Assembly (NCBI RefSeq): GCF_009363715.1
Contig: NZ_CP045404.1
Coordinates: forward strand, 3,130,001-3,194,000
Direction: 5' to 3'
Length of the DNA stretch: 64,000 nt
Source of the DNA: Roseovarius sp. THAF9
GTDB lineage: Bacteria; Pseudomonadota; Alphaproteobacteria; Rhodobacterales; Rhodobacteraceae
Made by a program: the position numbers and the translations under genes. Of the stretch, positions 44,484 to 62,245 are shown piece after piece (the stretch's first letter is position 1; each line of letters opens with the position of its first letter). The notes beneath the pieces are model-generated. The model saw only the letters and a list, made by a program, of their open reading frames with translations, was not told the origin of the DNA and ran no database searches.

Positions 44484-45590
44484 TTATTTTTTCAGTGGCT
44501 TAGAGAGGTTTTTGGCGAACTTTCTCGGAAGGTTCGCCGCATTTCGTTCACCATTTGGCCTTGCGATCAGTTTGTCGAATGCAGAATCCGCCATACATTC
44601 GCGTTCCACTTCTTCGGTATATCGCTGCACCTCTGCGAGTGTCCTGTGGCCAGTAACGGACATAATTTCGTGTGCGGATGCCTTTGCCTCGGCCAGACGT
44701 CGCGCACAGGCTTTGCGCAGTCCGTGGGAGGAGCAAGTCGCAAGCCCGGCTTGGTCGCACCATTCGCGCATCATGTTGCCAAGTCCATCTGGCGAACGAG
44801 GCTTCCCGTAGGCAGTAGCCAAAAATGGCTGATCCTTCGACAGGTCAGCCAGAACAGCAGCCAAGTCAGGGTGTAGGGGGATACTTACCTTTACGCCATT
44901 GCTACGGATCGTTTTTTGACGACGGTATTCTATCCGGTGATCCTTGATATTCCATGGCCCCAACTTCACTGCGTCCGCTCGCGCCGCGCCGGTGTAGAGC
45001 ATCAAGGTCACGGCACGATGCGCCATGGTGCCGCTTTGGTGAACTTCAAAGAATCGCGCGATCTCACCCTCTTCCCAAGTGTGATGCCCGCCGAGGTCAA
45101 GGCGATAGGGTTTTGTCGTGCTGACCGGGTTATCGTCCCGCCACTCTAGCGACACGGCATGATCCAGCAAGGTCATTAAACGTTTGCGAAGGTTGTTCGC
45201 CGCTGCTGGTGTCTCGGCTTTCTCGGCAAGGATGTTCTGCACGTGCCTGCGCTTCATAAGCTTGACTGGCTTGTCGCCGTGTTTCTCGCGAAAGCGCTCA
45301 ATGATGCTGCGGTAGTTACGTTTGGTGCCGTCGGATAGACCTAGAAACTCCGGCGAACGGTAATAGGAAGCGATCAGTGCGGAGACGGAGCCCGGACGTG
45401 TGCGCTCTACACCCACGAGCCCGCGCGTCCTGTGGCCTTCGACTGCCGCTTCATAGCGACGCTGAAAGACTTCTGATCCATAGTCTGTGCCGAGTTCTGC
45501 TGAAAAGGCACCCTTACGGAACCGCCAGCGTCTACGGCCGTGGCGGTCTGTATAAGGTGATGCGCCGGGGTATTGCCTACGATGCTTCAT
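44484..45590 (-). CDS. Tyrosine-type site-specific integrase
   Basis: This is a 368-residue phage/island integrase. The N-terminal arm-binding region spans about 1-75 and the core-binding domain 75-180. The catalytic residues are Arg in LYTGAARADAVKL, Lys in RRQKTIRSNG, His-x2-Arg in SSHGLRKACARRL, His in VTGHRTLAEVQ and the nucleophile Tyr in VQRYTEEVER. The start at 45590 overlaps the stop of a small upstream gene (ATGA), which supports it over the ATG at 45602. It reads toward tRNA-Arg, marking the left end of an integrative element. Confidence 0.93.
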   Translation of the reverse strand: MKHRRQYPGASPYTDRHGRRRWRFRKGAFSAELGTDYGSEVFQRRYEAAVEGHRTRGLVGVERTRPGSVSALIASYYRSPEFLGLSDGTKRNYRSIIERFREKHGDKPVKLMKRRHVQNILAEKAETPAAANNLRKRLMTLLDHAVSLEWRDDNPVSTTKPYRLDLGGHHTWEEGEIARFFEVHQSGTMAHRAVTLMLYTGAARADAVKLGPWNIKDHRIEYRRQKTIRSNGVKVSIPLHPDLAAVLADLSKDQPFLATAYGKPRSPDGLGNMMREWCDQAGLATCSSHGLRKACARRLAEAKASAHEIMSVTGHRTLAEVQRYTEEVERECMADSAFDKLIARPNGERNAANLPRKFAKNLSKPLKK

Positions 45591-45793
45591 GCTGCATCCC
45601 ATGGGTTTGGTTCTTCGACAGCAGCGCTATCGAATGTGTGGATTGTTACCTTGCCATCACGCCCGATTTCAGTTCGCGCCACCGGAATACCTGCATCCCG
45701 ATACGCTTTAAGATATCGGGTAAGCTCTGCTTGGGTGACAGTTGCGCGGCGGCTCGGGCGCGAATTAGTTATATCATTGGTTTCTATTTGCAT
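45587..45793 (-). CDS. Small protein co-transcribed with integrase
   Basis: This 68-residue protein contains RRATVTQAELTRYLKAYRDAGIPVARTEIGRDGKVTIHT, a helix followed by two strands. Similar short genes commonly precede integrases in alphaproteobacterial prophages and islands, as I recall. The stop overlaps the integrase ATG. It may be a recombination-direction or DNA-binding accessory factor, but no excisionase motif is evident. Confidence 0.7.
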   Translation of the reverse strand: MQIETNDITNSRPSRRATVTQAELTRYLKAYRDAGIPVARTEIGRDGKVTIHTFDSAAVEEPNPWDAA

Positions 45794-46156
45794 GTCCCGA
45801 AAGCCTTACCAAATGACAGGTTTCAGGAAGGTTTAAGAGACCGTTTACCTCTATTTTTCTTCGTTCACCTCTCTTAAGCTCTTGTTTGCATCCGCGAGTA
45901 TGTCTTTCTACTCGCGTTTCGATACCCTCCAGAATTTAGAATTTGGACGTTGCGACTCCGCACACGACAAATTGTTTGGCAATATTAAACCCAGCCTAAG
46001 AGCCGTCAGTATCAAGTCAAAAGAAACTCAAACGGCTCCAGGCAATCATGCCAATCTGTCCTGTCGATGTATGATCAGTGGGTCGTGGACCTATCCCACT
46101 CCTCTTGTTTCGGAAGTCGCTCAAACGTATGCTCCGGCGGTGGTGATGGCAACGTC
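45794..46156. other. AT-rich intergenic stretch between integrase unit and IS3 element
   Basis: No supported gene lies here; a 93-codon frame (45882-46163) resembles nothing and runs into the IS end. Base composition is visibly more AT-rich than the rest of the window. The first 85 bases carry the repeats listed at 45833-45877. Confidence 0.55.
45833..45877. promoter_or_regulatory. Direct and inverted repeats upstream of the integrase unit
   Basis: GTTTACCTCT (45843-45852) and GTTCACCTCT (45863-45872) are direct repeats 20 bp apart. They are enclosed by a perfect inverted repeat TTAAGAGA (45833-45840) and TCTCTTAA (45870-45877). They lie 40 bases before the small gene preceding the integrase. 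Integrase arm sites or repressor operators are possible readings. Confidence 0.45.
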
Positions 46157-46241
46157 TGTCTAACGTCAGCACCTACCGGACAGATTTAGGTGTTTGAGGA
46201 ACGGAGGATTTCTGGTTCATCGAAGCCATAATGGAGCGAAG

Positions 46242-46616
46242 ATGAACAAGAGATCCGGAACATCCAAGGATGCTGCTGACAAGCTTGTTAGGGGTATCAA
46301 GCGTAAGACCCGCAAGCACTACTCGGCGGAGGAGAAGATCCGCATCGTGCTTGCCGGGATGCGGGGCGAAGAAAGCATAGCGGCCCTGTGCCGTCGTGAA
46401 GGGATCGCTGAGAGCCTTTATTACAGCTGGTCGAAGGAGTTTCTTGAGGCTGGGAAGAACCGGCTGGCGGGTGACACAGCCCGTCAGGCGACAGCTCCCG
46501 AGGTCAAGGAACTGCGCTCTGAGGCAGCCGCGCTGAAAGAAGTGGTCGCGGAGCTGACACTGGAGAACAGGCTGCTCAAAAAAAGCACGTTCGGGGATGG
46601 GGAGGACGACGCATGA
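46242..46616 (+). CDS. IS3-family transposase, OrfA
   Basis: This is a 124-residue DNA-binding subunit. A helix-turn-helix (YSAEEKIRIVLAGMRGEESIAALCRREGIAESLYYSWSKEF) is followed by a leucine-zipper-like helix (ELRSEAAALKEVVAELTLENRLLKK). AAAAAAAG at 46578-46585 is a typical slippery site. Slipping one base back there joins OrfA in an open frame to OrfB. The ATG at 46242 follows GGAGCG. Confidence 0.9.
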   Translation: MNKRSGTSKDAADKLVRGIKRKTRKHYSAEEKIRIVLAGMRGEESIAALCRREGIAESLYYSWSKEFLEAGKNRLAGDTARQATAPEVKELRSEAAALKEVVAELTLENRLLKKSTFGDGEDDA

Positions 46617-47593
46617 GATACCCAGCCTCGGAGAAGCTCGAGATCATTCGGACAGTCGAAGCCTCGCATTTGCCGGTCAGGCGGACCCTGACCATGCTCG
46701 GCATTCCCAGCAGCACCTATTACCAGTGGTATGCGCGGTGGGCCGATGGCGGCGTTGACGCTTTGCGTGACACGTCCCCGCGGCCTCGGGCGGTGTGGAA
46801 CCGCATCCCGGACGAGATCCGCGACGCCTTCGTTGAGTTCGCGCTGGATCATGAGGATCTGACGCCACGGGAATTGGCGGTCAAATACACCGATGAGAAA
46901 CGGTATTTTGTATCTGAGTCCTCGGCATACCGCATTCTCAAGGCCCAGGACCTGATCACGGCTCCGGCCCATGTGGTGATCCGTGCCGCCGATGAGTTCC
47001 GGGACAAGACAACTCGGCCCAACGAACTCTGGCAAACCGACTTCACCTATCTCAAGGTCATCGGTTGGGGCTGGTTCTATCTCAGCACGATCCTCGACGA
47101 TTACAGCCGCTACATCATCGCGTGGAAGCTCTGCACGACAATGAAGGCCGTGGATGTGACGGACACGCTGGATCTGGCGCTGGAGGCCTCGGGCTGTGCT
47201 CATGCGACAGTCGTTCACAAGCCCCGGCTGCTCAGCGACAACGGCTCGTCCTACGTTGCGGCCGACCTGGCCGACTACCTCGATACCAAAGGTATGGATC
47301 ACGTCCGCGGAGCGCCGCACCACCCACAGACCCAGGGCAAGATCGAACGCTGGCACCAGACCATGAAGAACCGGGTTCTGCTGGAGAACTACTATCTGCC
47401 GGGGGATCTTGAACGCCAGATCGGCGACTTCGTCGGATACTACAACACTCGGCGATACCACGAGAGCCTGGATAACCTGACGCCGGCTGACGTCTACCAC
47501 GGTCGGGGTCGGACGATCCTGAAAATGAGAGAGGAGATCAAGAAACAGACAATCCGAAAGCGCCGGTTGCAGCACAAAGCCGCGGTCGCCTAA
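46613..47593 (+). CDS. IS3-family transposase, OrfB (DDE integrase)
   Basis: This is a 326-residue catalytic subunit with the rve/DDE fold. The acidic triad is readable as Asp in LWQTDFTYLK, Asp in LLSDNGSSY and Glu in QGKIERWHQTMK, with the K/R that follows. The C-terminal YYNTRRYHESLDNLTPADVYHGR is typical. It lies in the minus-one frame relative to OrfA and overlaps it by ATGA. It can therefore be made alone or as an OrfAB fusion. Confidence 0.93.
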   Translation: MRYPASEKLEIIRTVEASHLPVRRTLTMLGIPSSTYYQWYARWADGGVDALRDTSPRPRAVWNRIPDEIRDAFVEFALDHEDLTPRELAVKYTDEKRYFVSESSAYRILKAQDLITAPAHVVIRAADEFRDKTTRPNELWQTDFTYLKVIGWGWFYLSTILDDYSRYIIAWKLCTTMKAVDVTDTLDLALEASGCAHATVVHKPRLLSDNGSSYVAADLADYLDTKGMDHVRGAPHHPQTQGKIERWHQTMKNRVLLENYYLPGDLERQIGDFVGYYNTRRYHESLDNLTPADVYHGRGRTILKMREEIKKQTIRKRRLQHKAAVA

Positions 47594-47796: not shown

Positions 47797-49101
47797 TTAG
47801 AAATTCAATGTAAGCGTGACAGTCTGCCCACGCTCAGGTCCCTTAAAAAACTCAATACTGCCGCCAAGGCGCTCCATCGCGCTTGCAACGATGGACAGGC
47901 CCAGCCCGCTTCCATTGGCTTCTTGACCACGTCCCCGGGTAAATCGCGTTTGCATGCGATCCAGAAGCTCCGGCGGTATTCCATTTCCTTCGTCACTAAT
48001 GATGAACGAACGATCTCTAAGCGCCACGCTCACTCCCTCCCCAACGGGCGACGCATTGATTGCATTCTCGATCACGTTGCGCAACGCCGCTTGCAGAAGA
48101 AACGGGTTGGTACGGACATACGAAGTTCTTCTAGGCGCGTCGACTTTAAGCGTGACTTCCCGCTCCGCAGCAAAAGCCCGAAGGTCCGTTACAGTCTCGC
48201 GCATCAGCTCTGATAGATCGACTTCCTCCATTCCTTCCTCGGATCGTTCTACGGCGGCTAATTCAAGCAGTTGACGCACCATACGGTCGGTCCGATCCAC
48301 AGACCTCTCGATTGCCGCCAACGCTTTTTCGCGCACCTTCGGATCATCGGTTAGGCGCATCACCTGCGCGTTCGTGCGGAGGCCGGACAAAGGTGTTTTC
48401 AGCTCATGCGCCGCATAGGTGGTAAAGTCTCGCTCAACGTCCCGCGCCGAGGCCACCCGTTCGAACAAGCTGTTAAGAGCAGAGCGCACTGGTTTGATCT
48501 CGCGTGGGTCGGTCCCTCCGAGCAAAGGACTCAGGTCCGACGGCGAGCGGTTCCGGAGCGCGTTCGCCAAATGATCGAGCGGCGCAAGCCCCCTCGCCAC
48601 ACTGATCCACAAGATCACAGCCAAGATCGGTAAAACGAGTGCGCCCGGTAACAACAGCCCTTCCAGCACGTCCCGAGCCAGGTTGTCACGTACGGCCAAG
48701 CTATCACCTACCATAACCTTGACGCCAAGCTCCTGATTAATCAGCGTGTAGACCCTCCACGGCTCTCCATCGATGACTGAGCGGGTATAGCCTTCGACCG
48801 CAGCGTTGGTCAGTTCGACATCGGGCGCCCCGTCCGACCGACCAACCATGCTGCCATCCAGCGACCAGATTTGGCACGACAGTTGTTTCGAGTATGTCGC
48901 ATCTCGCGGGGTCGGAATCGGCAATGTCTGGTTTCCCGCCCGGGCGACTTCGATCCGGTGATCCGAAATCAGCGACGACACCATCTTGGCTGCCTCTGCG
49001 AGTCTGGCGTCTAGCACCTGCTCCACCTCGGACCGGGTCGAAGTCTGAATCCAAAGTGCGGCGGACAGCCAGACCGCGCCCGTGGCCAGAGCAAGGATCA
49101 C
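47797..49101 (-). CDS. Sensor histidine kinase
   Basis: This is a 434-residue membrane kinase. Helix 1 is at residues 1-20 and helix 2 at about 148-170, enclosing a periplasmic sensor of about 125 residues. A HAMP-like linker is followed by the phospho-acceptor His232 in YAAHELKTPLSGLR. The ATP-binding domain carries NVIENAIN, DEGNGIPPEL and GSGLGLSI. Layout and partner fit the QseC/PmrB/TctE group. It starts with GTG 9 bases after the response regulator; a CTG overlapping the upstream stop could add three residues. The stimulus is unknown; metal, oxidative and envelope stress are candidates. Confidence 0.9.
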   Translation of the reverse strand: MILALATGAVWLSAALWIQTSTRSEVEQVLDARLAEAAKMVSSLISDHRIEVARAGNQTLPIPTPRDATYSKQLSCQIWSLDGSMVGRSDGAPDVELTNAAVEGYTRSVIDGEPWRVYTLINQELGVKVMVGDSLAVRDNLARDVLEGLLLPGALVLPILAVILWISVARGLAPLDHLANALRNRSPSDLSPLLGGTDPREIKPVRSALNSLFERVASARDVERDFTTYAAHELKTPLSGLRTNAQVMRLTDDPKVREKALAAIERSVDRTDRMVRQLLELAAVERSEEGMEEVDLSELMRETVTDLRAFAAEREVTLKVDAPRRTSYVRTNPFLLQAALRNVIENAINASPVGEGVSVALRDRSFIISDEGNGIPPELLDRMQTRFTRGRGQEANGSGLGLSIVASAMERLGGSIEFFKGPERGQTVTLTLNF

Positions 49102-49109: not shown

Positions 49110-49793
49110 TCAGACGGATCGAGATGATGCGTCCTCCTCTTCGGCAAGTCGATAACCGAGACCTCGCACAGTCTCGATGAAGTTACGCCCAACTTTAGTA
49201 CGCAGCTTGTGAATATGAACTTCCACTGCGTTGCTCTCGACCTCTTCCTGCCAGCCGTAAAGCCGCTCTTCCAGCGTATCGCGACAGGTCACGCGGCGGG
49301 GATGCTCCATTAACGCACAGAGGATCGCGCACTCCCGGCGCGAAAATTTCAGGCTTTGCTCTCGGAAGCGGCCGCTCAGCGTGGCCGGATCAACCGTCAG
49401 TCCATTGTGGCTCAGGGCATTCGAGGCACGCCCCTCCCGCCGTCTCATCATAGCACGCAACCGAGCCGCCAGTTCGTCCAAATCGAATGGCTTGCCAAGG
49501 TAGTCATCCGCCCCCGTGTCCAATCCGCGAATCCTATCTCGCACCTGATCGCGCGCGGTCAGTAGCAGCACTGGCAGGTTCGATCCTTGCGCACGCAGCT
49601 CTGTCAGCAAGTCCAACCCAAGGCCATCGGGCAACATGATATCCAACACGACCCCGTCGAAATCAGACACCTCCAGCGCCGCACGGGCATCGCCAAGCGT
49701 CTCGACGGTATCCGGCGTAAAGCCGGACAGCCGAAGACCGGCAGACAAGCCTTCGGAAAGGACATCGTCATCTTCCACGATCAATATGCGCAT
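49110..49793 (-). CDS. OmpR-family response regulator (QseB/PmrA type)
   Basis: This is a 227-residue regulator. The receiver domain has Asp8/Asp9, phospho-acceptor Asp51 (VVLDIMLPD), Thr in LLLTARD and Lys in YLGKPFDLDEL. The C-terminal winged helix ends in SNAVEVHIHKLRTKVG.NFIETVRGLGYRL, the PmrA/QseB-like recognition helix. It is first in the operon with the kinase and divergent from dsbD. A CTTAAG-N5-CTTAAG box lies between the two start codons. Confidence 0.93.
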   Translation of the reverse strand: MRILIVEDDDVLSEGLSAGLRLSGFTPDTVETLGDARAALEVSDFDGVVLDIMLPDGLGLDLLTELRAQGSNLPVLLLTARDQVRDRIRGLDTGADDYLGKPFDLDELAARLRAMMRRREGRASNALSHNGLTVDPATLSGRFREQSLKFSRRECAILCALMEHPRRVTCRDTLEERLYGWQEEVESNAVEVHIHKLRTKVGRNFIETVRGLGYRLAEEEDASSRSV

Positions 49794-49826: not shown

Positions 49827-49849
49827 AACCTTAAGGCCTGCTTAAGGTT
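49827..49849. promoter_or_regulatory. PmrA/QseB-type box in the divergent rr / dsbD promoter region
   Basis: CTTAAG at 49830-49835 and CTTAAG at 49841-49846 are direct repeats separated by GCCTG (5 bases). The whole is also a 9-bp inverted repeat AACCTTAAG / CTTAAGGTT. PmrA boxes have the form CTTAAT-N5-CTTAAT. It lies 37 bases before the regulator start and 24 before dsbD, so it could serve autoregulation and dsbD control. Confidence 0.75.
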
Positions 49850-49869
49850 TCCGAGCCATTCGGCGCAAC

Positions 49870-51621
49870 ATGATGATGATCCGTACTTTTCTGGCCACGC
49901 TGGCGGCCCTTGCGATTTTGGCGCCAACAGATGCTTTTGCGCAAACCTCCTCCGACCCGCTTCTGGCTGAGCAGGCATTCGACCTTAGGGTCGACCATGA
50001 TGACAGCGCCATGACCCTTACCTGGGACATCGCCGAAGGCTATTATCTCTATCGGGACAACTTAAGAGCGGAGGGGCCTGATGGATCTTCATTAGCGCTT
50101 CAAACGCCGGATGGTGAAATCAAGGAAGACCCGAACTTCGGCACGGTCGAAGTCTTCTACAATCAGGTAATCGCACGCCTCGATGCTACCGCCGGACCCG
50201 TCACGCTGACTTGGCAGGGCTGCAAAGATGCCAGCATTTGCTATCCACCGCAGACACGGGTTATCGACATCGTTGGCGACAAGGGGTCAAGCGCCACGGG
50301 CAACGCGTCTGATGTGGATGCCGAACCCGCAGGCTTCAGCTTGGCCGATGAACCTGGCCTCTTGGCCGACATGTCGGATCGCGGCGGTGCAACGCTCGTG
50401 GTAGCTAGCTTCTTTGGCCTGGGCCTGCTTCTGGCCTTTACACCCTGCGTTTTCCCGATGTTTCCAATCGTGGCCGGTATGGTCATGGGGTCTCAGTCTT
50501 CACCAGGCCCGCGCCGCGGGCTGACCCTTGCGGCAGTCTATGTGCTGGCTATGGCGTCCGCCTTTGCCGGGCTGGGCATCGTCGCCGCATGGTCTGGACA
50601 GAACCTTCAAATCGCCCTGCAGTCGCCCATTGCCATCGGTGTGGCCGCTACGATCTTCGTATTTCTCGCGCTCTCAATGTTCGGCCTCTTCACCTTACAA
50701 ATACCCCAAGTCATCACCGCACGCCTCAAAAGGGTCGAGGGTCGACGCGGCTCGGTCGGAGGCGCTGCGTTGCTAGGCTTCACCTCTGCGCTAATCGTCG
50801 GTCCGTGTGTGACTGCGCCGCTGGCCGGGGCACTACTCTATATAGCGCAGACCGGCGACGTGGCTTTGGGCGCACTTGCACTCTTCGCCCTAGGTCTCGG
50901 TCAGGGCATACCTTTGTTGGCCATTGGTGCATTCGGACCGCGCATCCTGCCGAAATCAGGGTCGTGGATGGACACGACGGAATGGCTTTTCGGAGTTATC
51001 TTCCTTGGCGTCGCAATCTGGCTTGTCGGGCGCGTTCTACCAGGTCCGCTGACACTTGGATTGTGGGCAGTACTACTAATTGGTGTTGGTGTGGTCCTGG
51101 CTGATGCGCCAATTCCGGGTATGAAGGGCAGGCTGGGCCGCGCCGCAGGCGTGATTGTCCTAATTGCGGGCGCGCTCCAGGGAATCGGCGCAGCGGTCGG
51201 TGCAGTCGACCCCACGCGTCCGCTCGCCCCTTTCACGGCGCGTGGCCATGAATCGACGGCCCCTGACGATGGATTCGCCGACATACGCACGCACGACGGG
51301 CTGAGATCCGCTTTGGCCGAAACCAACCGCCCAACCCTCGCCTACGTCACAGCTGACTGGTGCACCACCTGCCGCAGCATCGAGCGTGGCCCGATGTCTG
51401 ACGCAAAGGTGCGCGCTGCGCTTGATCCGCTTACCCTACTAAAAGTCGATGTCACCGACTTCGGCCCCGAAAGCCAAGCGATGCTGGACCTGCTGGGCGC
51501 AGCGGGACCACCCACCATGGTTTTCTTCAACGCCAACGCGGCCGAAGCTACTGGCAGCCGGATCGTCGGCGATACCGGAAATGAGGAGATGTTGCGCTCG
51601 CTGCGGATGGTCTCGCGATGA
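49870..51621 (+). CDS. dsbD: Protein-disulfide reductase DsbD
   Basis: This is a 583-residue inner membrane electron carrier that moves reducing power from cytoplasmic thioredoxin to the periplasm. After a signal peptide (to about residue 24) comes the alpha domain with Cys118 and Cys124. The transmembrane core follows, with its redox cysteines in AFTPCVFPMFP and IVGPCVTAPLAG. The C-terminal thioredoxin-like domain carries ADWCTTCRS. All three cysteine pairs of a full DsbD are present. It overlaps the next gene (ATGA) and starts the operon. Confidence 0.95.
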   Translation: MMMIRTFLATLAALAILAPTDAFAQTSSDPLLAEQAFDLRVDHDDSAMTLTWDIAEGYYLYRDNLRAEGPDGSSLALQTPDGEIKEDPNFGTVEVFYNQVIARLDATAGPVTLTWQGCKDASICYPPQTRVIDIVGDKGSSATGNASDVDAEPAGFSLADEPGLLADMSDRGGATLVVASFFGLGLLLAFTPCVFPMFPIVAGMVMGSQSSPGPRRGLTLAAVYVLAMASAFAGLGIVAAWSGQNLQIALQSPIAIGVAATIFVFLALSMFGLFTLQIPQVITARLKRVEGRRGSVGGAALLGFTSALIVGPCVTAPLAGALLYIAQTGDVALGALALFALGLGQGIPLLAIGAFGPRILPKSGSWMDTTEWLFGVIFLGVAIWLVGRVLPGPLTLGLWAVLLIGVGVVLADAPIPGMKGRLGRAAGVIVLIAGALQGIGAAVGAVDPTRPLAPFTARGHESTAPDDGFADIRTHDGLRSALAETNRPTLAYVTADWCTTCRSIERGPMSDAKVRAALDPLTLLKVDVTDFGPESQAMLDLLGAAGPPTMVFFNANAAEATGSRIVGDTGNEEMLRSLRMVSR

Positions 51622-52490
51622 ACGCCATCGAACTTGGTCCGTTCGTTTTTGCAACCGAACGCTTCGCCTTCCTACTTGCTGCGGTGACCTTTTTTGGGTC
51701 GTTCCACTTGCTAACGTTGTGGCATATCGCAGGAGTCAGGGAAGATGTGCGCGCTTGGGCTTTTCCAGCGGCGATGATCTGGCTTCTGGGGGCTCGCACG
51801 GGATACGTGATGCAGCAATGGGATGTGTTCTCACAACATCCCCTCGACATCCCAAAAGTTTGGCAGGGCGGCGTTTCGGTCTGGACGGGGTTCGCCGGGC
51901 TGGCGGCTTTCGCCATCCTGGCCTACGCACGGCGTCGGGCCGCAGTAGCTCCTTTGCTCGCCGCAGCCTTCGCCGGCGGGCTGGTAAATCTGGGCTTGCT
52001 GAGCCTCAAGGAAACTGACGAAACCGCAGCCCTACCCACAACCGCCTTTCCTACCATGGCCGGCGACTTCACTCAGTTGAACGAGCGCGATGGTGCACCA
52101 CTGATCCTCAACCTCTGGGCCAGCTGGTGCCCGCCGTGCCGACGCGAGATGCCGATGATGATGGATGTGGCCAATACCATCCAAGGCGCCGACCTGGTCT
52201 TCGCCAATCAAGGCGAGACGCCAGCGCAAGTGACCGATTTCCTAGACACGCTTGGTCTCGGCGACCGCCATTTATTGCTCGACCCGACCTCTAGCCTCAT
52301 GGCTCGCTTTGACGCAGTTGGACTGCCGACGACGCTGTTCTTCGACGCCTCCGGCACCCTGCAAAACGTACATTTCGGCGAAATCTCACGCACCGAGCTG
52401 TTGTCGCAGATTGCGACAATCGACACCGCCGCGTCCAACTTGGGCGACGGTGACATACCAGATTCCGACCAGACAGGAGACCCCCAATGA
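51618..52490 (+). CDS. TlpA-type thioredoxin with an Lgt-like N-terminal membrane region
   Basis: This is a 290-residue two-part protein. Residues 1-130 form three to four membrane helices resembling the N-terminal half of Lgt: ELGPFVFATERFAFLLA, GARTGYVMQQWDVFSQHPLDIPKVWQGGVSVWTG parallels Lgt's [16 protein letters not shown]. The catalytic Arg/Asn half of Lgt is missing. Residues 140-285 form a TlpA-like thioredoxin with WASWCPPCRREMP (Cys171, Cys174) and a cis-Pro loop VGLPTTLFF. The enzyme half is thus membrane-tethered in the periplasm, where DsbD would reduce it. It overlaps its neighbours on both sides. Confidence 0.88.
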   Translation: MNAIELGPFVFATERFAFLLAAVTFFGSFHLLTLWHIAGVREDVRAWAFPAAMIWLLGARTGYVMQQWDVFSQHPLDIPKVWQGGVSVWTGFAGLAAFAILAYARRRAAVAPLLAAAFAGGLVNLGLLSLKETDETAALPTTAFPTMAGDFTQLNERDGAPLILNLWASWCPPCRREMPMMMDVANTIQGADLVFANQGETPAQVTDFLDTLGLGDRHLLLDPTSSLMARFDAVGLPTTLFFDASGTLQNVHFGEISRTELLSQIATIDTAASNLGDGDIPDSDQTGDPQ

Positions 52491-53113
52491 TCCTTACAAG
52501 ACGAAACCTCATCGCAACCGGCGCCGGCGGCCTGCTTTTGGGCGCCGGGGCGGTCTCCCTTTGGCCCGAAACCGGTCAGGCGCAACAACTGACCATCGAC
52601 GCCGTGCTTAACGATCCTGACGCGCCTGTGCAGGGCAACCCTGACGGCGATGTAACTCTGGTCGAGTATTTCGACTATCAGTGCCCGTTCTGCAAACGGA
52701 TGCATCCGATGTTGAAGGACGTGGTAGCCGAGGACGGCAAGGTGCGTCTCGTGATGAAGGACTGGCCAATTTTCGGCGCGGCCTCGATCCGGGCCAGCCA
52801 ACTCACTCTCGGCGCGGTGTCGCTCTGGGCATACGAGCAGGTGCACGACGCGCTCATGGCGACTGAGGCGCGCCTCAGCATCAAGGACGTGGAAGCCACC
52901 ATTGCCGAAGTCGTCGCAGTGGAGAAGGCCGAAGCTGCCTACCACGCTAACCGCGACACTTGGGCCGGCCTGCTGACTCGCAACGACCACCAGGCCGTAG
53001 CTCTCGGTTTTCGCGGCACGCCGGCTTTCGCCATTGGAACGACACTCTACACCGGCGCACAGAAGCGCAAGAACCTTGTCGACGCTATCGCGAAGGCCCG
53101 TGCCGAAGCTTAA
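52487..53113 (+). CDS. DsbA-family thiol:disulfide protein, exported
   Basis: This is a 208-residue protein. The N terminus TRRNLIATGAGGLLLGAGA resembles a Tat or Sec signal. The DsbA-like thioredoxin fold carries CPFC (Cys66, Cys69) in YFDYQCPFCKRMHPML and a cis-Pro loop RGTPAFAIG. The CPFC motif and the position behind dsbD and the TlpA-like gene suit a reductase or isomerase of the DsbG/ScsC sort rather than a pure oxidase. Its stop codon overlaps a second CTTAAG box. Confidence 0.88.
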   Translation: MILTRRNLIATGAGGLLLGAGAVSLWPETGQAQQLTIDAVLNDPDAPVQGNPDGDVTLVEYFDYQCPFCKRMHPMLKDVVAEDGKVRLVMKDWPIFGAASIRASQLTLGAVSLWAYEQVHDALMATEARLSIKDVEATIAEVVAVEKAEAAYHANRDTWAGLLTRNDHQAVALGFRGTPAFAIGTTLYTGAQKRKNLVDAIAKARAEA

Positions 53114-53125
53114 GCCCCACTTAAG
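53109..53125. promoter_or_regulatory. Second PmrA/QseB-type box, before the L,D-transpeptidase genes
   Basis: CTTAAG at 53109-53114 and CTTAAG at 53120-53125 are separated by CCCCA (5 bases), the same geometry as the box at 49830. It lies 62 bases upstream of the first transpeptidase ATG, a good place for an activator site next to a promoter. Confidence 0.72.
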
Positions 53126-53187
53126 CTGCGGCTGCGACTTGAAATAAGTTCACAATAAAACAAAGGGCTGACAAAAAGGAAATCCCG

Positions 53188-53742
53188 ATGAAACATCTCC
53201 TGACACGTCGCGCGGCCATTGCACTCGGCCTCGCCACCGGGGCTGGCCTTGCCGCGCCATCATTGGCTATCGCCCAAACAACCAGCCGCAATACGTCAAG
53301 CTTCACCATGCAGGATTGGCGCGACCACTTCGAAAATCTCGGCAAGGCGTCCATCGTAGCGGACACCACTTCGCGCGCGCTACATTTCTGGAATCATGAC
53401 GGCACCGACTACCGGATCTACCCAACATCCGTGCCGATGTCGGAAGAGCTGACCAAGCGCGGTTACACAAGAATCGTGCGAAAGAAAGTGGGGCCGGACT
53501 GGACGCCGACTCAATCCATGTTGGAGCGCAATCCCGACCTTCAATACATGCCACCGGGCCCCGACAATCCACTTGGCACTCATGCGATGTACCTGTCTTG
53601 GCCCGCCTACATCATTCATGGCACCCATGACACGCGCAAGATCGGGCGCAAGTCCTCGGATGGCTGCATCGGTCTCTATAACTCGATGATCGAGGAACTC
53701 TATGGCCTCTGCCCCGTCGGCACTCAAGTGCACGTGATCTGA
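53188..53742 (+). CDS. L,D-transpeptidase (YkuD domain), first copy
   Basis: This is a 184-residue exported enzyme. A twin-arginine-like signal (LTRRAAIALGLATGAGLAAP) leads to a YkuD domain. The catalytic stretch reads YIIHGTHDTRKIGRKSSDGCIGLYN, with the nucleophile Cys in DGC and the essential His in HGT. Such enzymes make 3-3 cross-links in peptidoglycan or attach proteins to it. AAAAGGA lies before the ATG. The upstream CTTAAG box suggests control by the nearby response regulator. Confidence 0.9.
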   Translation: MKHLLTRRAAIALGLATGAGLAAPSLAIAQTTSRNTSSFTMQDWRDHFENLGKASIVADTTSRALHFWNHDGTDYRIYPTSVPMSEELTKRGYTRIVRKKVGPDWTPTQSMLERNPDLQYMPPGPDNPLGTHAMYLSWPAYIIHGTHDTRKIGRKSSDGCIGLYNSMIEELYGLCPVGTQVHVI

Positions 53743-53750: not shown

Positions 53751-54338
53751 ATGAAACGCAGAACCTTTATCCTAAGCGGGGTCGCCCTCGGGGGCCTTCC
53801 GACTACCGGACAGGCCGTTGCAGAAGATGCATCCCCGCTGATGGTGCCTCATATCGTCCAGATGGCGTCGCCCGCCCCGCCGCCGGGCGAGGTACATGTT
53901 GTGCCGGGTCCTTTCCGGCTCTACTGGACGCTGCCTAAACGGCGCGCCATCGTCTATCCTGTGCGCATTGGACGTGCTGAGCTCTACGAGGCCGGGGAAT
54001 ATTATGTTGGTGCGAAGAAAGAGTGGCCGTCCTGGATGCCAACGCCGGGAATGATCGCACGAGAGCCCGAGCGTTATGCCAAATACGCGGACAGTGGTTT
54101 GCCGGGCGGGCCAGGGAATCCGCTAGGGGCTCGAGCGCTCTATCTTTTTACCAAAGAGCGCGGCGATACCTTTCTGCGAATTCACGGCACAGATGATCCA
54201 AGCACTATCGGGCGTGCAGTATCTAACGGCTGCGCGGGGCTGATAAACGCGCACATGATCGACCTGTACGAAAGGGTTCCCATGAATGCGCGTGTGATCC
54301 TGCACCCGAAGCCGATAGGCGGCGGATTTTCCGATTGA
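53751..54338 (+). CDS. L,D-transpeptidase (YkuD domain), second copy
   Basis: This is a 195-residue exported enzyme. A signal peptide (MKRRTFILSGVALGGL) is followed by a YkuD domain with FLRIHGTDDPSTIGRAVSNGCAGLIN, including the catalytic Cys and His. The preceding GPGNPLGARALYLF is the standard lead-in. It starts 8 bases after the first copy. The two share fold but differ in sequence, so they may use different acceptors rather than being a recent duplication. Confidence 0.9.
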   Translation: MKRRTFILSGVALGGLPTTGQAVAEDASPLMVPHIVQMASPAPPPGEVHVVPGPFRLYWTLPKRRAIVYPVRIGRAELYEAGEYYVGAKKEWPSWMPTPGMIAREPERYAKYADSGLPGGPGNPLGARALYLFTKERGDTFLRIHGTDDPSTIGRAVSNGCAGLINAHMIDLYERVPMNARVILHPKPIGGGFSD

Positions 54339-54440: not shown

Positions 54441-55259
54441 ATGATGAGACGACGCAAGTTCCTATCCTGTTCCATGGCGGTATTTGTTCCCGGCACGACG
54501 CTCGGGAGTGACACGCTTCCACCTGCCCGCTCAATACACGACCGTGAAGGCGAAAGCACACTGCTTCCGGCGCATGGCGCGGGTCCGTTGGTCTACGTTT
54601 CCCACAGGCTCGGCGGCGTTCCGGCGAAGGGCCGCCAGCGGGAAGCGCCGTGGGTAATGTTCGACGCGATGCGGCGTGCTGGCTGGCATCTCGTGCGAAG
54701 TGCCGATGCCGGTCCCGACACGTACGGAAACGACCTTGCTCTGAGCTATTGCGCACGTATGTGTAGCAAAGCAATCCAACGGGTCGAGTGGAACGGACAA
54801 TTGTTTGCGCTTGGAATCTCTATGGGCGCGTTGCCAGCGCTTCAGATGACGTGGAAAGGGTTGTTTCCCCAGCCAGTTGTTGCCGTGGCGACAATTGACG
54901 GGGCGATGAATCTGCAGGCCATCCATAGCAGCCCGCCAGAGCGCCGTAAGAGGATCGAAGCGGCATACGCAGAAGAGGAAGAAGGTTCCTTCAGAAAAGC
55001 CAGCCGGGGCCATGACCCCTTGAATGATTTTCACGATTTCTCGTATAGAGGCATCCCTCTGCTAGCGCTAGCCAGTTCAGACGACGCTGTACTTCCTATA
55101 GCAGAGCATTCTAAGCTGATGGTGGCTGCTAGCCGATCAATTGGCGGAAAGTCTGAAATTGTGCGAACAAAAGGTCCGCATCTTGCTGATAGCCATTTTT
55201 CCGAAGACGCCTCTAGGCTCATAATCGAATTTTTCTCAAAGCATGCGCACGGGTTGTAG
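54441..55259 (+). CDS. Exported alpha/beta-hydrolase-like protein
   Basis: This is a 272-residue protein. A signal peptide with MMRRRKFLSCSMAVFVPG is followed by an alpha/beta-hydrolase-type core. The nucleophile elbow is LGISMGALPA (G-x-S-x-G), the likely acid is in LALASSDDAVLP, and the His lies in KGPHLADSHF. It follows the transpeptidases on the same strand after 100 bases. The substrate is unknown; an envelope ester or peptide linkage would fit the context. Confidence 0.72.
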   Translation: MMRRRKFLSCSMAVFVPGTTLGSDTLPPARSIHDREGESTLLPAHGAGPLVYVSHRLGGVPAKGRQREAPWVMFDAMRRAGWHLVRSADAGPDTYGNDLALSYCARMCSKAIQRVEWNGQLFALGISMGALPALQMTWKGLFPQPVVAVATIDGAMNLQAIHSSPPERRKRIEAAYAEEEEGSFRKASRGHDPLNDFHDFSYRGIPLLALASSDDAVLPIAEHSKLMVAASRSIGGKSEIVRTKGPHLADSHFSEDASRLIIEFFSKHAHGL

Positions 55260-55686: not shown

Positions 55687-57417
55687 CTATTCCGACGCAG
55701 ACCTAGGCGATTTTGCTAGCTGCCTCCAAGCATCGAACTGAGACAAGAATACCTCGCCGTTTAGCTCGTCCAGAAAATGGGAACGACTGAGTCGATCCAT
55801 CACCGGTCCTTTTACTTCTGACAGGTGCAAACCAACCTGCATATCTCTTAAACGGAGATTGATCGCTTCAAGGCTTTCGAGGGCCGAATAGTCGACTTCG
55901 TTCACCGCCGAAAACATCAAGACCACGTTCATGACGTCACAGCCGTTGGTCACCCGCTTCTGGATCAGGTCCTCCAGAAAGCGGGCATTTACGAAGTAGA
56001 GGCTTTCATCAACACGCAGCGTCACAAGGGTTGGATCGGTTTTGACCTTGTGCCGATGAATGTTACGGAAGTGTTGGGTCTCAGGGACCAGACCGACTTC
56101 GGCCACATGTGGTCGCGAAGTTTTGTAGAGGTGCAAGAGAACAGACACTGCGACACCGGATGCTACGCCGACCTCCACGCCCAGACTAAGAGTAAGGATA
56201 ATCGTCGCGGCAACGGCCGTGAAGTCGGCACGGCTGTAGCCCCATGTCTTTTTGAGGATCGAAAGGTCCACAAGGCTGAGCACAGCGACTATGATAGTAG
56301 CGGCAAGCGTTGCGTTCGGCAAAAAGTAGACCAGCGGCGTAAGAAAAAGTGCCGCGATAGCGAGCCCAAGTGCAGTGTAAGCTCCAGCTGCGGGGGTCTC
56401 GGCACCAGCGTCGAAGTTGACGACTGAGCGCGAAAAGCCACCCGTTACCGGAAAGCCGCCTGTAAACGCAGCACCAAGGTTTGCGGCACCGAGACCGATC
56501 AACTCTTGGTCAGGATCAATACGCTGACGCTTCTTCGCCGCAAGTGTCTGCGCAACAGAAACGGATTCGACGAAGCCGATGATCGAAATCAGAATGCCTG
56601 GGACCAGAAGAGTACTGAGCAGGTCCGGCGAAAACCCAGGGAGCGTAAGTGGCGGCAGACTTTGCGGCACCTCGCCGACGATCTTGACACCACGGTCGGC
56701 AAGCCCGAATGCCCAAACCGCAACAGTGGTGGCCACGACCGCGGCCACCGGCCCCGCCTTTGTCAAAATGTCGGCCACCAGACGCGACGCGCCCAGTTTT
56801 AGCAAAGACGCCTTTAGGTTCTTGCGCACCCAGAAAAGAAACGCTGTTGCGGTCGTTCCGATCATGAGCGTGATCCAGTTCACCGCATTCAGATGCGCAA
56901 AGATCGAAGCAATCATCTCGGGAAGCGTATGGCCATGCGCGCTCACTCCGAGGATGTGTTTCAATTGGCTAGTGGCGATAAGAATACCCGACGCCGTGAT
57001 GAACCCCGCAATCACCGGGTGGCTCAGGAAATTTGCTAGAAAGCCCAGTCGAAACACGCCCATCAGCACAAGAAAGCCACCAGACAGGAGTGCAAGCGTC
57101 AGGGCTGCGACAGCATAGCCCGCTGTCCCTTGTTCCGCGACTTGGCCAAGCGCGGAGGCGGTCAAGAGCGAAACGACTGCTACCGGACCGACCGCCAATG
57201 CCCGGCTCGTGCCGAAGATCGTGTAGAGCAGGATCGGGGCAATCGACGCATAGATACCCGCCTCGGGTGGTAGGCCAGCAAGAAGCGCATATGCCAGCGA
57301 CTGAGGGATCAGCATAATCGTTACAATCACCGCAGCGATTAGGTCGTTCGATAGGGCCAGCCTATTGTAGGTCCGGCCCCAATCGAGAATTGGAAAGTAT
57401 TGTCGCAGGCTGGGCAT
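55687..57417 (-). CDS. SulP-family anion permease with STAS domain
   Basis: This is a 576-residue inner membrane transporter. The helical core has the SulP signature PQSLAYALLAGLPPEAGIYAS near residue 38, plus GGFPVTGGFSRSVVNFDAGAETP. A cytoplasmic STAS domain occupies about residues 445-570 (LRVDESLYFVNARFLEDLI...VNEVDYSALESLEAIN). The start at 57417 is the conserved N terminus. It is last in the leftward sulfide-related set. Sulfate, sulfite or bicarbonate are possible substrates; the neighbours favour a sulfur oxyanion. Confidence 0.9.
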   Translation of the reverse strand: MPSLRQYFPILDWGRTYNRLALSNDLIAAVIVTIMLIPQSLAYALLAGLPPEAGIYASIAPILLYTIFGTSRALAVGPVAVVSLLTASALGQVAEQGTAGYAVAALTLALLSGGFLVLMGVFRLGFLANFLSHPVIAGFITASGILIATSQLKHILGVSAHGHTLPEMIASIFAHLNAVNWITLMIGTTATAFLFWVRKNLKASLLKLGASRLVADILTKAGPVAAVVATTVAVWAFGLADRGVKIVGEVPQSLPPLTLPGFSPDLLSTLLVPGILISIIGFVESVSVAQTLAAKKRQRIDPDQELIGLGAANLGAAFTGGFPVTGGFSRSVVNFDAGAETPAAGAYTALGLAIAALFLTPLVYFLPNATLAATIIVAVLSLVDLSILKKTWGYSRADFTAVAATIILTLSLGVEVGVASGVAVSVLLHLYKTSRPHVAEVGLVPETQHFRNIHRHKVKTDPTLVTLRVDESLYFVNARFLEDLIQKRVTNGCDVMNVVLMFSAVNEVDYSALESLEAINLRLRDMQVGLHLSEVKGPVMDRLSRSHFLDELNGEVFLSQFDAWRQLAKSPRSASE

Positions 57418-57548
57418 TGTCGTTTCGCAATCAAGAAGGGCGGTGTGAGGCGCGACGCCGCCAACCACCGAATTTCAGGCCAGACCGAAAGGTTCTGATC
57501 GTGCTTTTTGAGACGGACGCATCCGCCTCAAAGTGGCCTCTAGTTGAA

Positions 57549-59228
57549 CTACTCGGCTGCGACCTTTAGCTGCTCAGGTTTTGCCATCCATTCCTTACCC
57601 CTCAGCATGGCTTGCCAATAGATTGGAGGAAGCATCTTTTCCTTAAGGAACCAGGCGGCACGGGTAGGCTTAGTGCCATCGACCAGCCAGGCTGGGAAGG
57701 ATGGCTTCAGGGCCCCGCCATATCCGAACTCTGCCAGCACAATCTTACCGCGCTCGACAGTGAGCGGGCACGAGCCGTAGCCGTCGTATTGGGCAACGGC
57801 CGACCGACCACGTATGTCCGCGACAATATTTTCGGCTACGGTCGGAGCCTGCTTGCGCGCCGCCGCAGCCGTCTTGGCGTTCGGGGCATTCATCACATCG
57901 CCGAGCGACCATATGTTGTCGAATGATTTGTGACGCAGAGTGGCCTGATCCACGTCGACCCACCCAGTGGCATCGGCCAGGGGCGAAACACGGATGAAGT
58001 CCGGCGCAGTCTGTGGCGGACAAACATGCATCATGTCGAACTCGACGGTGACCTCGGTTGGATCCGTATCGGGTTTCGCCACCCTGAACGTGGCCGTCTT
58101 GGCCGGACCATCGACAGAGATGAGGTTATGGAAAAAGTTCAGCGTCGCGTCGTACTTTTCGACGTATTCCATGAGAGCCGGCACGTAGTCCTTCACGCCG
58201 AACAGTACGCCCCCGGCATTCATGAACTGGATATCGATGTTCTTCAGAACGCCGCGCCGAAACCATGCGTCACCAGACAAATACATCGCTTTCTGCGGTG
58301 CGCCCGCACATTTGATCGGCATCGGCGGCTGCGTAAAGAGCGCTCGGCCCTGCTTCGTCTCCTGCACAAGCTGCCAAGTATAGGGCGCGAGATCGTAGCG
58401 ATAGTTAGAAGTCACGCCGTTGCGCCCAAGCGTTTCTTCCAGACCTTCGACGCAACTCCAGTCCAGCTTCAGGCCCGGGCAGACGACAAGGCGGTCGTAC
58501 TTCACGACCCGGCAGCCATCGAGGATAACGGCATTGTTCTGCGGCTCGAAGGCGGCGACAGCAGCCTTGATCCATTTGACACCGCTAGGTATCAGGCTGC
58601 CCATTGTCTTTGCGGTCTGGCTTGCCTCGAAGATGCCGCCGCCGACCATGGTCCAACCGGGCTGGTAATAATGGATATCGGCAGGATCGATCACAGCGAT
58701 ACTGAGGCCGGATTTCCGAGACTTCAGGCTGGCAGCAACCGAGATACCGCCGGCGCCCGCCCCAACGATCACAACATCATATTTGGCATCGCCAGTATCT
58801 GTCGGCGTCTTGCCGCCGTTGGCGATACGCCGTGCAACGCCGTTCATGTCGTAGCCAGCGTCCTTGGTCGCTGCCAGGATGTCCGGCATCGAACGCGTCT
58901 TGGCTTCACTTAAGGACCAGAGCGTGGCGGACCGAGTGCCCGTGCGGCAATACGCCAGAACCGGACGCGGCAAGTCTTCGAGAGACGCACCGAAAGCCGC
59001 CACATCTTCATCGTTGACCATTCCGGACTCCACCGGAACATAACGCGCGTCGATTCCGACGGCTTTCGCTGCAGCTTCAACTTCCTCAAAGCTTGGCTGG
59101 TCCGCTCCTTCGCCGTCCGGGCGGTTGCAGATGATAGCGCGGAAACCCGCAGCCTTGATCTCCGCAATATCGTTGACTGTAATCTGTGGTGAGACCGATA
59201 CTTTCTCGGTGATTTTTTTGATGTCCAT
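57549..59228 (-). CDS. Fusion of a phosphatase-like/sulfurtransferase (TIGR01244) domain and a sulfide:quinone oxidoreductase-like flavoprotein
   Basis: This is a 559-residue fusion. Residues 1-135 form a DSP-like TIGR01244 domain with the loop YCRTGTRS (Cys94, Arg99; C-x4-R), as in Blh proteins. Residues 148-555 are an SQR-like flavoprotein: the FAD motif VVIVGAGAGGISVAASL at 152, HYYQPGWTMVGGG near 186, and cysteines in LVVCPGLKLDW and IKCAGAPQKAMYL that correspond to the redox cysteines. AAAAGG lies before the ATG at 59228. It probably oxidises sulfide to persulfide at the membrane and may pass sulfur on. Confidence 0.9.
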   Translation of the reverse strand: MDIKKITEKVSVSPQITVNDIAEIKAAGFRAIICNRPDGEGADQPSFEEVEAAAKAVGIDARYVPVESGMVNDEDVAAFGASLEDLPRPVLAYCRTGTRSATLWSLSEAKTRSMPDILAATKDAGYDMNGVARRIANGGKTPTDTGDAKYDVVIVGAGAGGISVAASLKSRKSGLSIAVIDPADIHYYQPGWTMVGGGIFEASQTAKTMGSLIPSGVKWIKAAVAAFEPQNNAVILDGCRVVKYDRLVVCPGLKLDWSCVEGLEETLGRNGVTSNYRYDLAPYTWQLVQETKQGRALFTQPPMPIKCAGAPQKAMYLSGDAWFRRGVLKNIDIQFMNAGGVLFGVKDYVPALMEYVEKYDATLNFFHNLISVDGPAKTATFRVAKPDTDPTEVTVEFDMMHVCPPQTAPDFIRVSPLADATGWVDVDQATLRHKSFDNIWSLGDVMNAPNAKTAAAARKQAPTVAENIVADIRGRSAVAQYDGYGSCPLTVERGKIVLAEFGYGGALKPSFPAWLVDGTKPTRAAWFLKEKMLPPIYWQAMLRGKEWMAKPEQLKVAAE

Positions 59229-59294
59229 GTCATGCACCTTTTCGCGTTTCAGAAGTGCGGCGCAGAGGCGCCGTCAGACCAATTTATGGTGCCG

Positions 59295-59786
59295 TTACAC
59301 GGCCGGGGCCTCTTCCTGAGTCACCGAAACCAGCTTCGCACTATACGCTTGCTCACCGATCCGCTCGATAAGATCGATTTGCAGCTCAAGCCATGACTTG
59401 TGACCTTCCTCATCAAGCGCAATTGTCTCGAAGAGCGTGCGCGAACCGATGTCATTCGCCTCGAATGCTTCTCGCGCAGCACGCGTATAGAATGCGATTG
59501 CGTCTTCTTCATCGGCAAGGTCAGCTTTGAACATTTCGTTCAACGTCTCGGCGCGTTCTGGAAGCTTCGCAAAGGAGATCTCTGGGGTACCCTTCAGAAA
59601 TAAGATGCGCTCGATGAAGAGATCGGAGTGCCCGATTTCCTCGGCCTGCTCTTCACGCATCTTGGCTGCAAGAAGGTTGAGGCCCCAATCGTCAAGCACA
59701 TGCGCATGCAATTGATATTGGTGCGCGGCGCTCATTTCCATCTGAAGCGCACGGTTCAAGTTTTCTACCGTCTTGTTATTAGACAT
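59295..59786 (-). CDS. bfr: Bacterioferritin-like protein lacking the heme methionine
   Basis: This is a 163-residue four-helix iron-storage protein. The di-iron ferroxidase ligands are in place: Glu17, Glu50, His53, Glu93, Glu126 and His129. The heme ligand of E. coli bacterioferritin (Met52) corresponds to Ile51 here in EEIGHSD, so heme binding in the usual way is not expected. It lies 42 bases downstream of the metallo-hydrolase gene and 66 before the SQR-like fusion, within one leftward set. It may protect against iron-driven damage under sulfide stress. Confidence 0.9.
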   Translation of the reverse strand: MSNNKTVENLNRALQMEMSAAHQYQLHAHVLDDWGLNLLAAKMREEQAEEIGHSDLFIERILFLKGTPEISFAKLPERAETLNEMFKADLADEEDAIAFYTRAAREAFEANDIGSRTLFETIALDEEGHKSWLELQIDLIERIGEQAYSAKLVSVTQEEAPAV

Positions 59787-59828
59787 AAGTTATTTCCTTT
59801 CGAAGGGATGAGTGACGCAATTCTCGTT

Positions 59829-60713: not shown

Positions 60714-60987
60714 ATCATCTCCTCCGAAAGAGCTCATGCAGCAGCGCGTGCCGCGGTATTTCGAGGCAACTTTTGCAGTAAGACCCCGCGGCAGTCGCCA
60801 GTGGTAAAACAGCGATGCCCGCCACCTATACCCAGGACCGGGATCGCCGCATCGTATGTGGTGACCGGCACGCAAAGCGAAGCAGGCCGCCCAAGAAGAC
60901 TGGGTGAAGATGCCCGGCGCCAAGCACTACATACCTACCGCGAACGATGGCGCCGATTTCGGTCGCCGCAGCCTCCTCCACACGAAT

Positions 60988-61010
60988 AAGTTCTATTCTG
61001 AGTAGAAGTT
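60988..61010. promoter_or_regulatory. 23-bp near-palindrome upstream of the ETHE1/Blh-like gene
   Basis: AAGTTCTATTC, T and GAGTAGAAGTT match in 9 of 11 paired positions. It is AT-rich, lies next to AAAAAA, and sits 14 bases from the shared operator. It is a candidate site for a dimeric repressor. Confidence 0.5.
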
Positions 61011-61023
61011 AAAAAATTCCGCG

Positions 61024-61043
61024 TCAGTGATATTGTCACCGAA
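61024..61043 (-). promoter_or_regulatory. Shared operator-like sequence, copy 1
   Basis: On the minus strand this reads TTCGGTGACAATATCACTGA. It matches 18 of 20 bases of the plus-strand copy at 62246-62265. The core GTGAC-AAT-ATCAC is nearly palindromic. It lies upstream of the leftward metallo-hydrolase/bfr/SQR/sulP set. Confidence 0.7.
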
Positions 61044-61064
61044 GCTTCAGTTTAAGCCACCGCG

Positions 61065-62197: not shown

Positions 62198-62212
62198 TCT
62201 GTCCTCCACTCT

Positions 62213-62239: not shown

Positions 62240-62245
62240 TGCAAG

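Follow-up and report, generated by a model that had tools for sequence, protein, structure and literature searches.

The stretch of DNA analysed here, 64,000 nucleotides of Roseovarius sp. THAF9 (contig NZ_CP045404.1, positions 3,130,001 to 3,194,000; hereafter the window), contains a compact locus in which a two-component system, a periplasmic thiol relay and two L,D-transpeptidase genes are accompanied by two copies of the repeat CTTAAG-N5-CTTAAG (hereafter the box). On the minus strand lie the genes for a sensor histidine kinase (47797-49101; 2CSK_N, HisKA and HATPase_c domains in Pfam; start codon uncertain) and an OmpR-type response regulator with a PmrA-like recognition helix (49110-49793; Pfam, curated models and alignment to PmrA). 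Divergent from them, on the plus strand, dsbD (49870-51621) encodes a membrane thiol reductase with DsbD_N, DsbD_TM and thioredoxin domains in Pfam, scoring 485.6 bits against NF001419 (cut-off 330). It is followed on the same strand by a gene for a TlpA-like thiol oxidoreductase with a WCPPC motif and an N-terminal LGT-like membrane stretch (51618-52490; Pfam LGT 33.8 and AhpC-TSA 48.8 bits) and by dsbA (52487-53113), which encodes a DsbA/ScsC-like protein (Pfam) with a CPFC motif, a GTP that we take as the Thr-cis-Pro and a Tat-type signal recognised by eye; the best solved chains for this protein are 3gyk, 7rgv, 6nen, 4xvw, 6mhh and 4gxz. Next on the plus strand come ldtA (53188-53742), encoding a YkuD L,D-transpeptidase with the motif HGT...SDGCIGLYN (PF03734 73.6 bits, gathering 23.4; best solved chain 4lzh), and, 8 bp past it and presumably on the same transcript, ldtB (53751-54338), encoding a second YkuD protein with the motif SNGCAGLIN (PF03734 57.3 bits, same gathering threshold).

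Box 1 (49830-49846; CTTAAGGCCTGCTTAAG, spacer GCCTG) lies within the 76-bp gap separating the divergent regulator and dsbD genes, and Box 2 (53109-53125; CTTAAGCCCCACTTAAG, spacer CCCCA) lies 62 bp upstream of ldtA. Both are exact matches, found precisely where an earlier note on this DNA had placed them, and Box 2 indeed overlaps the dsbA stop codon (TAA, 53111-53113), as that note had also claimed. Two of its descriptions need qualification. The boxes were called direct repeats, and the exact 5-bp-spaced geometry does occur twice, but because the half-site CTTAAG is a palindrome, the repeat is present on both strands of each box and no strand is assigned. They were also likened to a PmrA box made of two CTTAAT halves; the CTTAAG-type half-sites and the 5-bp spacing hold, whereas the half-sites published for Salmonella Typhimurium PmrA are CTTAAG and XTTAAT with 5 bp between them, as given in passages of PMC3973317, and not CTTAAT twice.

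The box is rare. Allowing up to two mismatches, the window holds three matches (mean of 100 shuffles 0.31, maximum 2), and the single half-site CTTAAG occurs 11 times (shuffle mean 3.85, maximum 9). A genome-wide search, which the earlier note had proposed, was run over all 4,560,251 bases and returned the exact box only at the two window sites, 3.3 kb apart; the looser pattern YTTAAK-N5-YTTAAK adds one further site (G000:C1:1278835). At the stringency of an exact match the genome offers no further site, and by that measure the regulon seems limited to this locus. For control of lipid A modification genes, which belongs to the PmrA/PmrB system, the observation is the same: exact boxes here alone, and the one looser match.

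Joint occurrence of box and regulator in genomes

In a family sample of 149 genomes, one per genus, the exact box was present in 8 genomes, and relatives of the regulator, at a threshold fixed beforehand (E 1e-70), occurred in the identical 8 (Fisher 2e-13). The control pattern, the box read backwards, was found in 33 of the 149 genomes, three of them among the 8, and dsbD relatives (E 1e-80) in five, all within the 8. A larger family sample of 394 genomes, comprising these 149 and 245 new ones, was scanned with a regulator threshold of E 1e-60 and the top seven candidates per genome scored. The regulator was found in 20 genomes, the exact box in 25 and both in 18, so that the exact box occurs in 18/20 regulator genomes versus 7/374 others (Fisher 1.6e-23), and all 20 regulators reached E 2.3e-78 or better, though 1e-60 was permitted. 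The 245 added genomes alone give the same picture (10/12 regulator genomes versus 7/233 regulator-free ones). Given this scarcity of the exact box in regulator-free genomes, two boxes 3.3 kb apart are most unlikely to have arisen by chance. Nor is the association mere neighbourhood, because a distance of 387 kb separates regulator and box in one genome (G051), and in another (G088) they are on separate contigs, the box standing before ldtA in both. In a class-wide sample the regulator was found in 2 of 260 genomes, one being that of the window; the other, newly added genome (G405) carries a box with one mismatch, located between the regulator gene and tlpA-dsbA relatives.

The genes behind the box recur as well. 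A box precedes the dsbD operon in all 14 alphaproteobacterial dsbD loci (11 exact, three with one mismatch), with differing spacers, and stands beside all 12 regulators new in the 394-genome sample (nine exact, two with one mismatch, one with two). It is found before ldtA relatives in several genera and gene orders, even where ldtA lies far from dsbD, and before a second DsbA-like gene in Paracoccus. Relatives of dsbD occur in 72 plasmid records, and in the nine that were read a box with at most one mismatch precedes the dsbD operon in eight and a 2-mismatch box in the ninth; on a Rhizobium rosettiformans plasmid, a second exact box stands before an L,D-transpeptidase gene, which is followed by an annotated dsbG. 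The recurrent targets are dsbD and ldtA, and the possibility that the box merely marks dsbD as its sole target was rejected, since it precedes ldtA in two genomes where no dsbD is found at E 1e-80 (G051 and G088). An exact box also precedes a CcoN-like gene in three loci (L004:11570-13117, L132:15360-16904 and L133:15684-17225), and a box precedes a c-type cytochrome gene in L004. The L004 CcoN-like protein scores 280.5 bits versus a ccoN cut-off of 583 and is perhaps an unusual oxidase; SoxA/TsdA-like cytochromes are encoded near the CcoN-like genes.

Control loci were largely devoid of the box. In 65 other dsbD loci, mostly gammaproteobacterial by title and totalling 879,295 bases, three boxes with at most one mismatch were found, and there were none in 30 paralogous kinase loci (102,483 bases). 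Relatives of ldtA occur in 137 genomes; 30 loci were fetched, and the 23 that came from regulator-free genomes have no box, the best match carrying 3-5 mismatches. After the catalytic GC[IV], both window YkuD proteins have Gly versus Arg in 4lzh (SHGCVRL), and the same Gly is found in ldtA rows of at least 193 bits, with or without a box; this Arg-to-Gly change was considered as a mark of box-linked transpeptidases and rejected, being present in box-free ldtA relatives too. Two dsbD relatives depart from the usual form: the gene appears split in two in Sulfitobacter brevis (L071:7001-8673) and annotated as two genes on a Roseovarius indicus plasmid (L212:8881-10704).

DNA recognition, promoter signal and sensor kinase

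Among curated models the regulator scores best with PmrA (222.1 bits, cut-off 330) and then QseB (213.3 bits, cut-off 345). The PmrA/QseB class assignment of the earlier note therefore survives in that these are the two top-scoring models, but both scores fall below their cut-offs and the protein is PmrA-like, not PmrA. Its alignment to PmrA is gap-free, and its best solved relatives are BasR/PmrA chains (8jo2 and 4s04). The DNA-contact residues of PmrA were taken from a docking model described in passages of PMC3973317. In a comparison of 29 relatives, N188, E191, V192, H193, H195, R198 and R210 are identical in all 29, T187 is replaced by Ser and K153 by Arg in all 29, and position 171 varies, with Arg in 7 relatives and Lys in the other 22. 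Four of the ten OmpR-type regulators of the window genome were parsed, one of them the window's own, and the three others deviate at positions 188, 191 and 195. Taken with the co-occurrence data, these features predict, with near certainty on our part, that the boxes are the operator of the adjacent PmrA-like regulator.

The window system resembles PmrA/PmrB (BasRS) in its two direct CTTAAG-type half-sites 5 bp apart and in the shared N188, E191, V192, H193 and H195. It differs in that regulator and kinase both score below the curated PmrA and PmrB cut-offs, in its targets (a thiol relay and transpeptidases) and in the palindromic half-sites, which are apparently used both ways. Neither partner reaches the QseB/QseC cut-offs: the kinase scores best with QseC (258.4 bits, cut-off 475), then with PmrB (145.2 bits, cut-off 314), and the regulator likewise falls short of QseB. 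The operator of BqsR/BqsS (CarRS) of Pseudomonas aeruginosa has the same sequence and spacing as the window boxes; according to passages of PMC4682146, it reads TTAAG-N6-TTAAG, changing the spacer to 5 or 7 reduces expression to below 10%, half-sites can be shared and BqsR responds to ferrous iron. A counterpart to such shared half-sites is seen in one relative of the window locus, with three consecutive CTTAAG half-sites at 11-bp steps that form two overlapping boxes (L153:2228-2255, G262).

The sequences next to the boxes carry a promoter-like signal. In an alignment of 57 flanks, which are phylogenetically non-independent and in which two-way boxes count twice, an A occupies offset 11, the twelfth base past the box, in 50 flanks (1.35 bits versus a 99% shuffle maximum of 0.24), distributed over dsbD (14/14), regulator (15/19), ldtA (13/14) and other genes (8/10); weaker signals are T1 (39/57), C9 and G15. 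In the window this A lies at 49858 on the plus strand (dsbD, after Box 1), at 49818 on the minus strand (regulator, on the other side of Box 1) and at 53137 on the plus strand (ldtA, after Box 2). If it is read as the second base of a -10 element, the box would end 10 bp upstream of that element and cover the -35 region. PhoB-type activators likewise have their box over the -35 region. A consensus TANNNT -10 element might have been expected to stand out in the aligned flanks, but none did. The dsbD start codon lies 22-23 nt beyond the box in 14 of 15 rows, from which we infer that the dsbD message would be leaderless or nearly so.

Box exactness differs with gene arrangement. In hand-chosen gaps, the box is exact in 24/26 cases where it separates the regulator from a gene divergent from it, versus 7/19 for one-way boxes (Fisher 0.00016), 17 of these 19 having at most one mismatch. 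The comparison omits the one-way sites before the second DsbA gene, ccoN and the cytochrome gene as well as most ldtA loci found via the box, includes L160 and L212, whose 2-mismatch box is identical, and also takes in a locus (L140) from a genome whose box was already known. The exactness of the divergent-gap boxes fits a palindromic site read both ways; stronger autoregulatory sites would give the same pattern. The conserved A past the box suggests activation, in both directions from one palindromic box, and we regard activation rather than repression as probable.

A single residue stands out in the kinase. Cys76 is the sole cysteine of the window protein, in its presumed periplasmic part, and is kept in 29/29 orthologues (rows from fetched loci with at least 250 bits and 90% coverage), in nine of which it is the only cysteine of the aligned region. 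By contrast, in paralogous 2CSK_N kinases, taken from the 30 best-scoring PF08521 loci, the position is Tyr in 29 of 30 rows, and the remaining row (L186, Ala) is an artefact of a wrong reading frame with 30 cysteines. This invariance makes a thiol-based sensing step plausible, and there is, in our estimate, an even chance that Cys76 senses thiol-damaging stress. The iron motif of BqsS-type kinases is RExxE; unlike in BqsS, it was not found in the window kinase when the translation was read by eye.

Adjoining the unit is a run of sulfide-/redox-type genes (55687-64000) that includes genes for a sulfate permease family (SulP) protein, a ferritin-like protein, Crp/Fnr and Rrf2 regulators, a 1-Cys peroxiredoxin and cytochrome bd subunit I. 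The same run contains a fusion gene, whose product has a sulfur-transferase domain scoring over the cut-off of TIGR01244 (BLH-phosphatase) and a part resembling sulfide-quinone reductase (SQR; 203.6 bits, cut-off 525), and a gene for a metallo-hydrolase that resembles the Blh dioxygenase (366.2 bits, cut-off 625). At least one relative of these permease, fusion and dioxygenase genes is present in 9 of 33 alphaproteobacterial loci versus 0 of 65 controls, the 33 including seven without dsbD (L132, L133, L135, L136, L137, L138 and L141) and many ending before neighbours become visible. Between this run and ldtB lies a gene for a protein without a Pfam or NCBIfam match and with a Tat-like start by eye (54441-55259), a 59% relative of which adjoins the kinase on a Pseudosulfitobacter plasmid (L213). 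On the other side, a tyrosine recombinase-like gene and an IS3/IS481-type transposase gene (44484-47593) adjoin the kinase gene; given these neighbours and the plasmid records with dsbD relatives, the unit may be mobile.

Proposed mechanism, alternatives and meaning

The earlier note had claimed a single regulon of kinase, regulator, dsbD-tlpA-dsbA and both transpeptidases. Our computational results strongly support this claim through the near-perfect pairing of box and regulator in different genera, the position of the box before the same genes in differing gene orders and the PmrA-like contact residues. In the mechanism that we propose, the kinase would phosphorylate the PmrA-like regulator, probably on sensing thiol-damaging stress through Cys76, and the phosphorylated regulator would bind the box in the -35 region as a head-to-tail dimer and activate transcription. 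The palindromic half-sites of Box 1 would drive both the regulator-kinase pair, in positive autoregulation, and dsbD-tlpA-dsbA, with Box 2 driving ldtA-ldtB. DsbD would pass cytoplasmic electrons to the TlpA-like and DsbA/ScsC-like periplasmic proteins, which would in turn free the catalytic cysteine of the co-induced L,D-transpeptidases from oxidation or persulfide adducts, and the repaired enzymes would keep cell-wall cross-linking going under thiol-damaging stress. As a whole, this predicted thiol-stress two-component system, co-inducing L,D-transpeptidases and a protective DsbD relay, appears rather likely to us; activation, the step from relay to transpeptidases and the kind of stress are what we infer. 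Co-induction of cysteine enzymes and their repair is the simplest reading.

Precedents exist for parts of this scheme. In E. coli, L,D-transpeptidases have their lone cysteine protected by DsbG, which DsbD maintains in the reduced state, as passages of PMC3526765 report, citing Depuydt et al. 2009; the parallel is DsbD, a thioredoxin-fold reductase and single-cysteine transpeptidases. The window differs in that its reductase is DsbA/ScsC-like, not DsbG, and in that its genes apparently answer to a single two-component system through one type of operator; by this analogy, the balance tips slightly towards the relay serving the transpeptidases. The DsbD-like, TlpA-like and ScsC-like trio, in which dsbD scores above the DsbD cut-off, also recalls the Scs proteins, but here it is tied to L,D-transpeptidases and a regulator of its own, and no ScsA-like gene was seen in the operon. 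Two-component control of an L,D-transpeptidase likewise has a precedent in the E. coli envelope stress system Cpx, which controls LdtD according to passages of PMC12729407. The regulator and operator of the window system are different. To our knowledge, no thiol relay lies in the same unit as Cpx-LdtD.

Several observations weigh against this scheme. In three genomes (G051, G088 and G138) no box within one mismatch adjoins the regulator gene, and autoregulation is therefore not a general feature. Among the transpeptidase genes, the ldtA of Limimaricola (L009) has no box (best match six mismatches), that of Citreimonas (L003) has a box with two mismatches, G091 and G026 each carry a second, box-free ldtA copy, and of the four ldtA relatives in the window genome, exact boxes are found solely at this locus. 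Two of the 20 regulator genomes have no exact box, carrying 1-mismatch (G205) and 2-mismatch (G272) versions near the regulator, and in seven genomes with an exact box no regulator was found among the top seven candidates scored at E 1e-60. The -10-like signal is one strong base, and a 17-bp spacer would put the -35 element on the box spacer and the upstream half-site. At the bqs promoter, the downstream half-site overlaps the -35 element, in passages of PMC4682146, and the register may therefore differ. A cbb3-like oxidase and a c-type cytochrome in some regulons are unexplained by care of the transpeptidases. Finally, sulfide-gene relatives occur in just 9 of the 33 loci, four of them close (at least 62% identity), and the five others (25-38% identical) may be different genes.

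The last point bears on the signal. Reactive sulfur, rather than copper or oxidants, is our first guess for the main signal, a tentative and by itself somewhat unlikely one, our estimate having been lowered slightly because only four of the nine loci have close sulfide-gene relatives; copper and oxidants are close rivals. The fullest version of the scheme, in which the invariant kinase cysteine registers damage to thiols, with reactive sulfur derived from sulfide as the likeliest cause, and bidirectional palindromic boxes of the PmrA type induce cysteine enzymes together with their repair relay, is a rather doubtful prediction. The same regulon could instead be a copper-stress response of the Scs kind, in which copper attacks periplasmic thiols and transpeptidases, and relay and transpeptidases are both induced. 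The make-up of dsbD-tlpA-dsbA resembles that of scsBDC, the solved chains that match the DsbA-like protein best include two named as copper resistance or suppression of copper sensitivity proteins (6nen and 4gxz), and a multicopper-oxidase gene lies near one relative (L213). In addition, Caulobacter ScsC binds copper (PMC8900818), and copper inhibits L,D-transpeptidases, to go by a title cited in PMC12729407. Against this, the scanned window neighbours are of the sulfide/redox type, with no copper exporter recognised among the part of the window genes that was scanned, and a copper response is on the whole unlikely.

TlpA and DsbD relatives act in cytochrome c and copper-centre assembly, and the relay might, under the same operator and regulator, have c-type cytochromes and an alternative oxidase as its clients, maturing or repairing them, with the transpeptidases as a parallel envelope adjustment outside its care. 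The boxes before the CcoN-like genes of L004, L132 and L133 and the cytochrome gene of L004 would fit such a role. However, CcoN-like relatives are found in 3 of 21 loci and 0 of 9 further loci, many of them short, and none was recognised among the scanned proteins beside the window unit. The targets that recur are dsbD and ldtA, and the solved structures that best match the DsbA-like protein are of the DsbA/ScsC type; on balance this role is improbable. The mode of action could also be the reverse of activation, with the regulator occupying the -35 region and blocking RNA polymerase until phosphorylation relieves the block. The boxes do cover the expected -35 region, but PmrA activates from such sites and the -10-like signal is weak, as at activator-dependent promoters. 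BqsR too activates from such a site, in passages of PMC4682146, and repression seems quite improbable. Very improbable, lastly, is a reading in which some other DNA-binding protein uses the boxes or they are palindromes that arose by chance: exact boxes do exist in 7/374 regulator-free genomes, but the co-occurrence with the regulator, the conserved positions despite variable spacers, the recognition helix and a count of three boxes with at most one mismatch in the 879,295 bases of the other dsbD loci all speak for the PmrA-like regulator.

Judged from search listings, no description of this regulon was found in the open-licence literature. The operator type is already known; what is new is its use for a thiol relay and transpeptidases, the apparently two-way box and the invariant kinase cysteine, and the -10-like signal, that cysteine and the sulfide-type neighbours go beyond the earlier note. 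The link between operator and regulator is sharp enough for reading this regulon in other genomes, and the unit is found on plasmids, in Rhodobacterales and in some Hyphomicrobiales. In the E. coli precedent, a DsbD-fed reductase protects the transpeptidase cysteine; here, the relay and the enzymes that it would protect appear to have the same type of operator. If the proposed mechanism is true, sensor, target and repair would all act on one chemical group, and the locus would offer a natural system for asking when periplasmic cysteines need protection and how cells sense that need.

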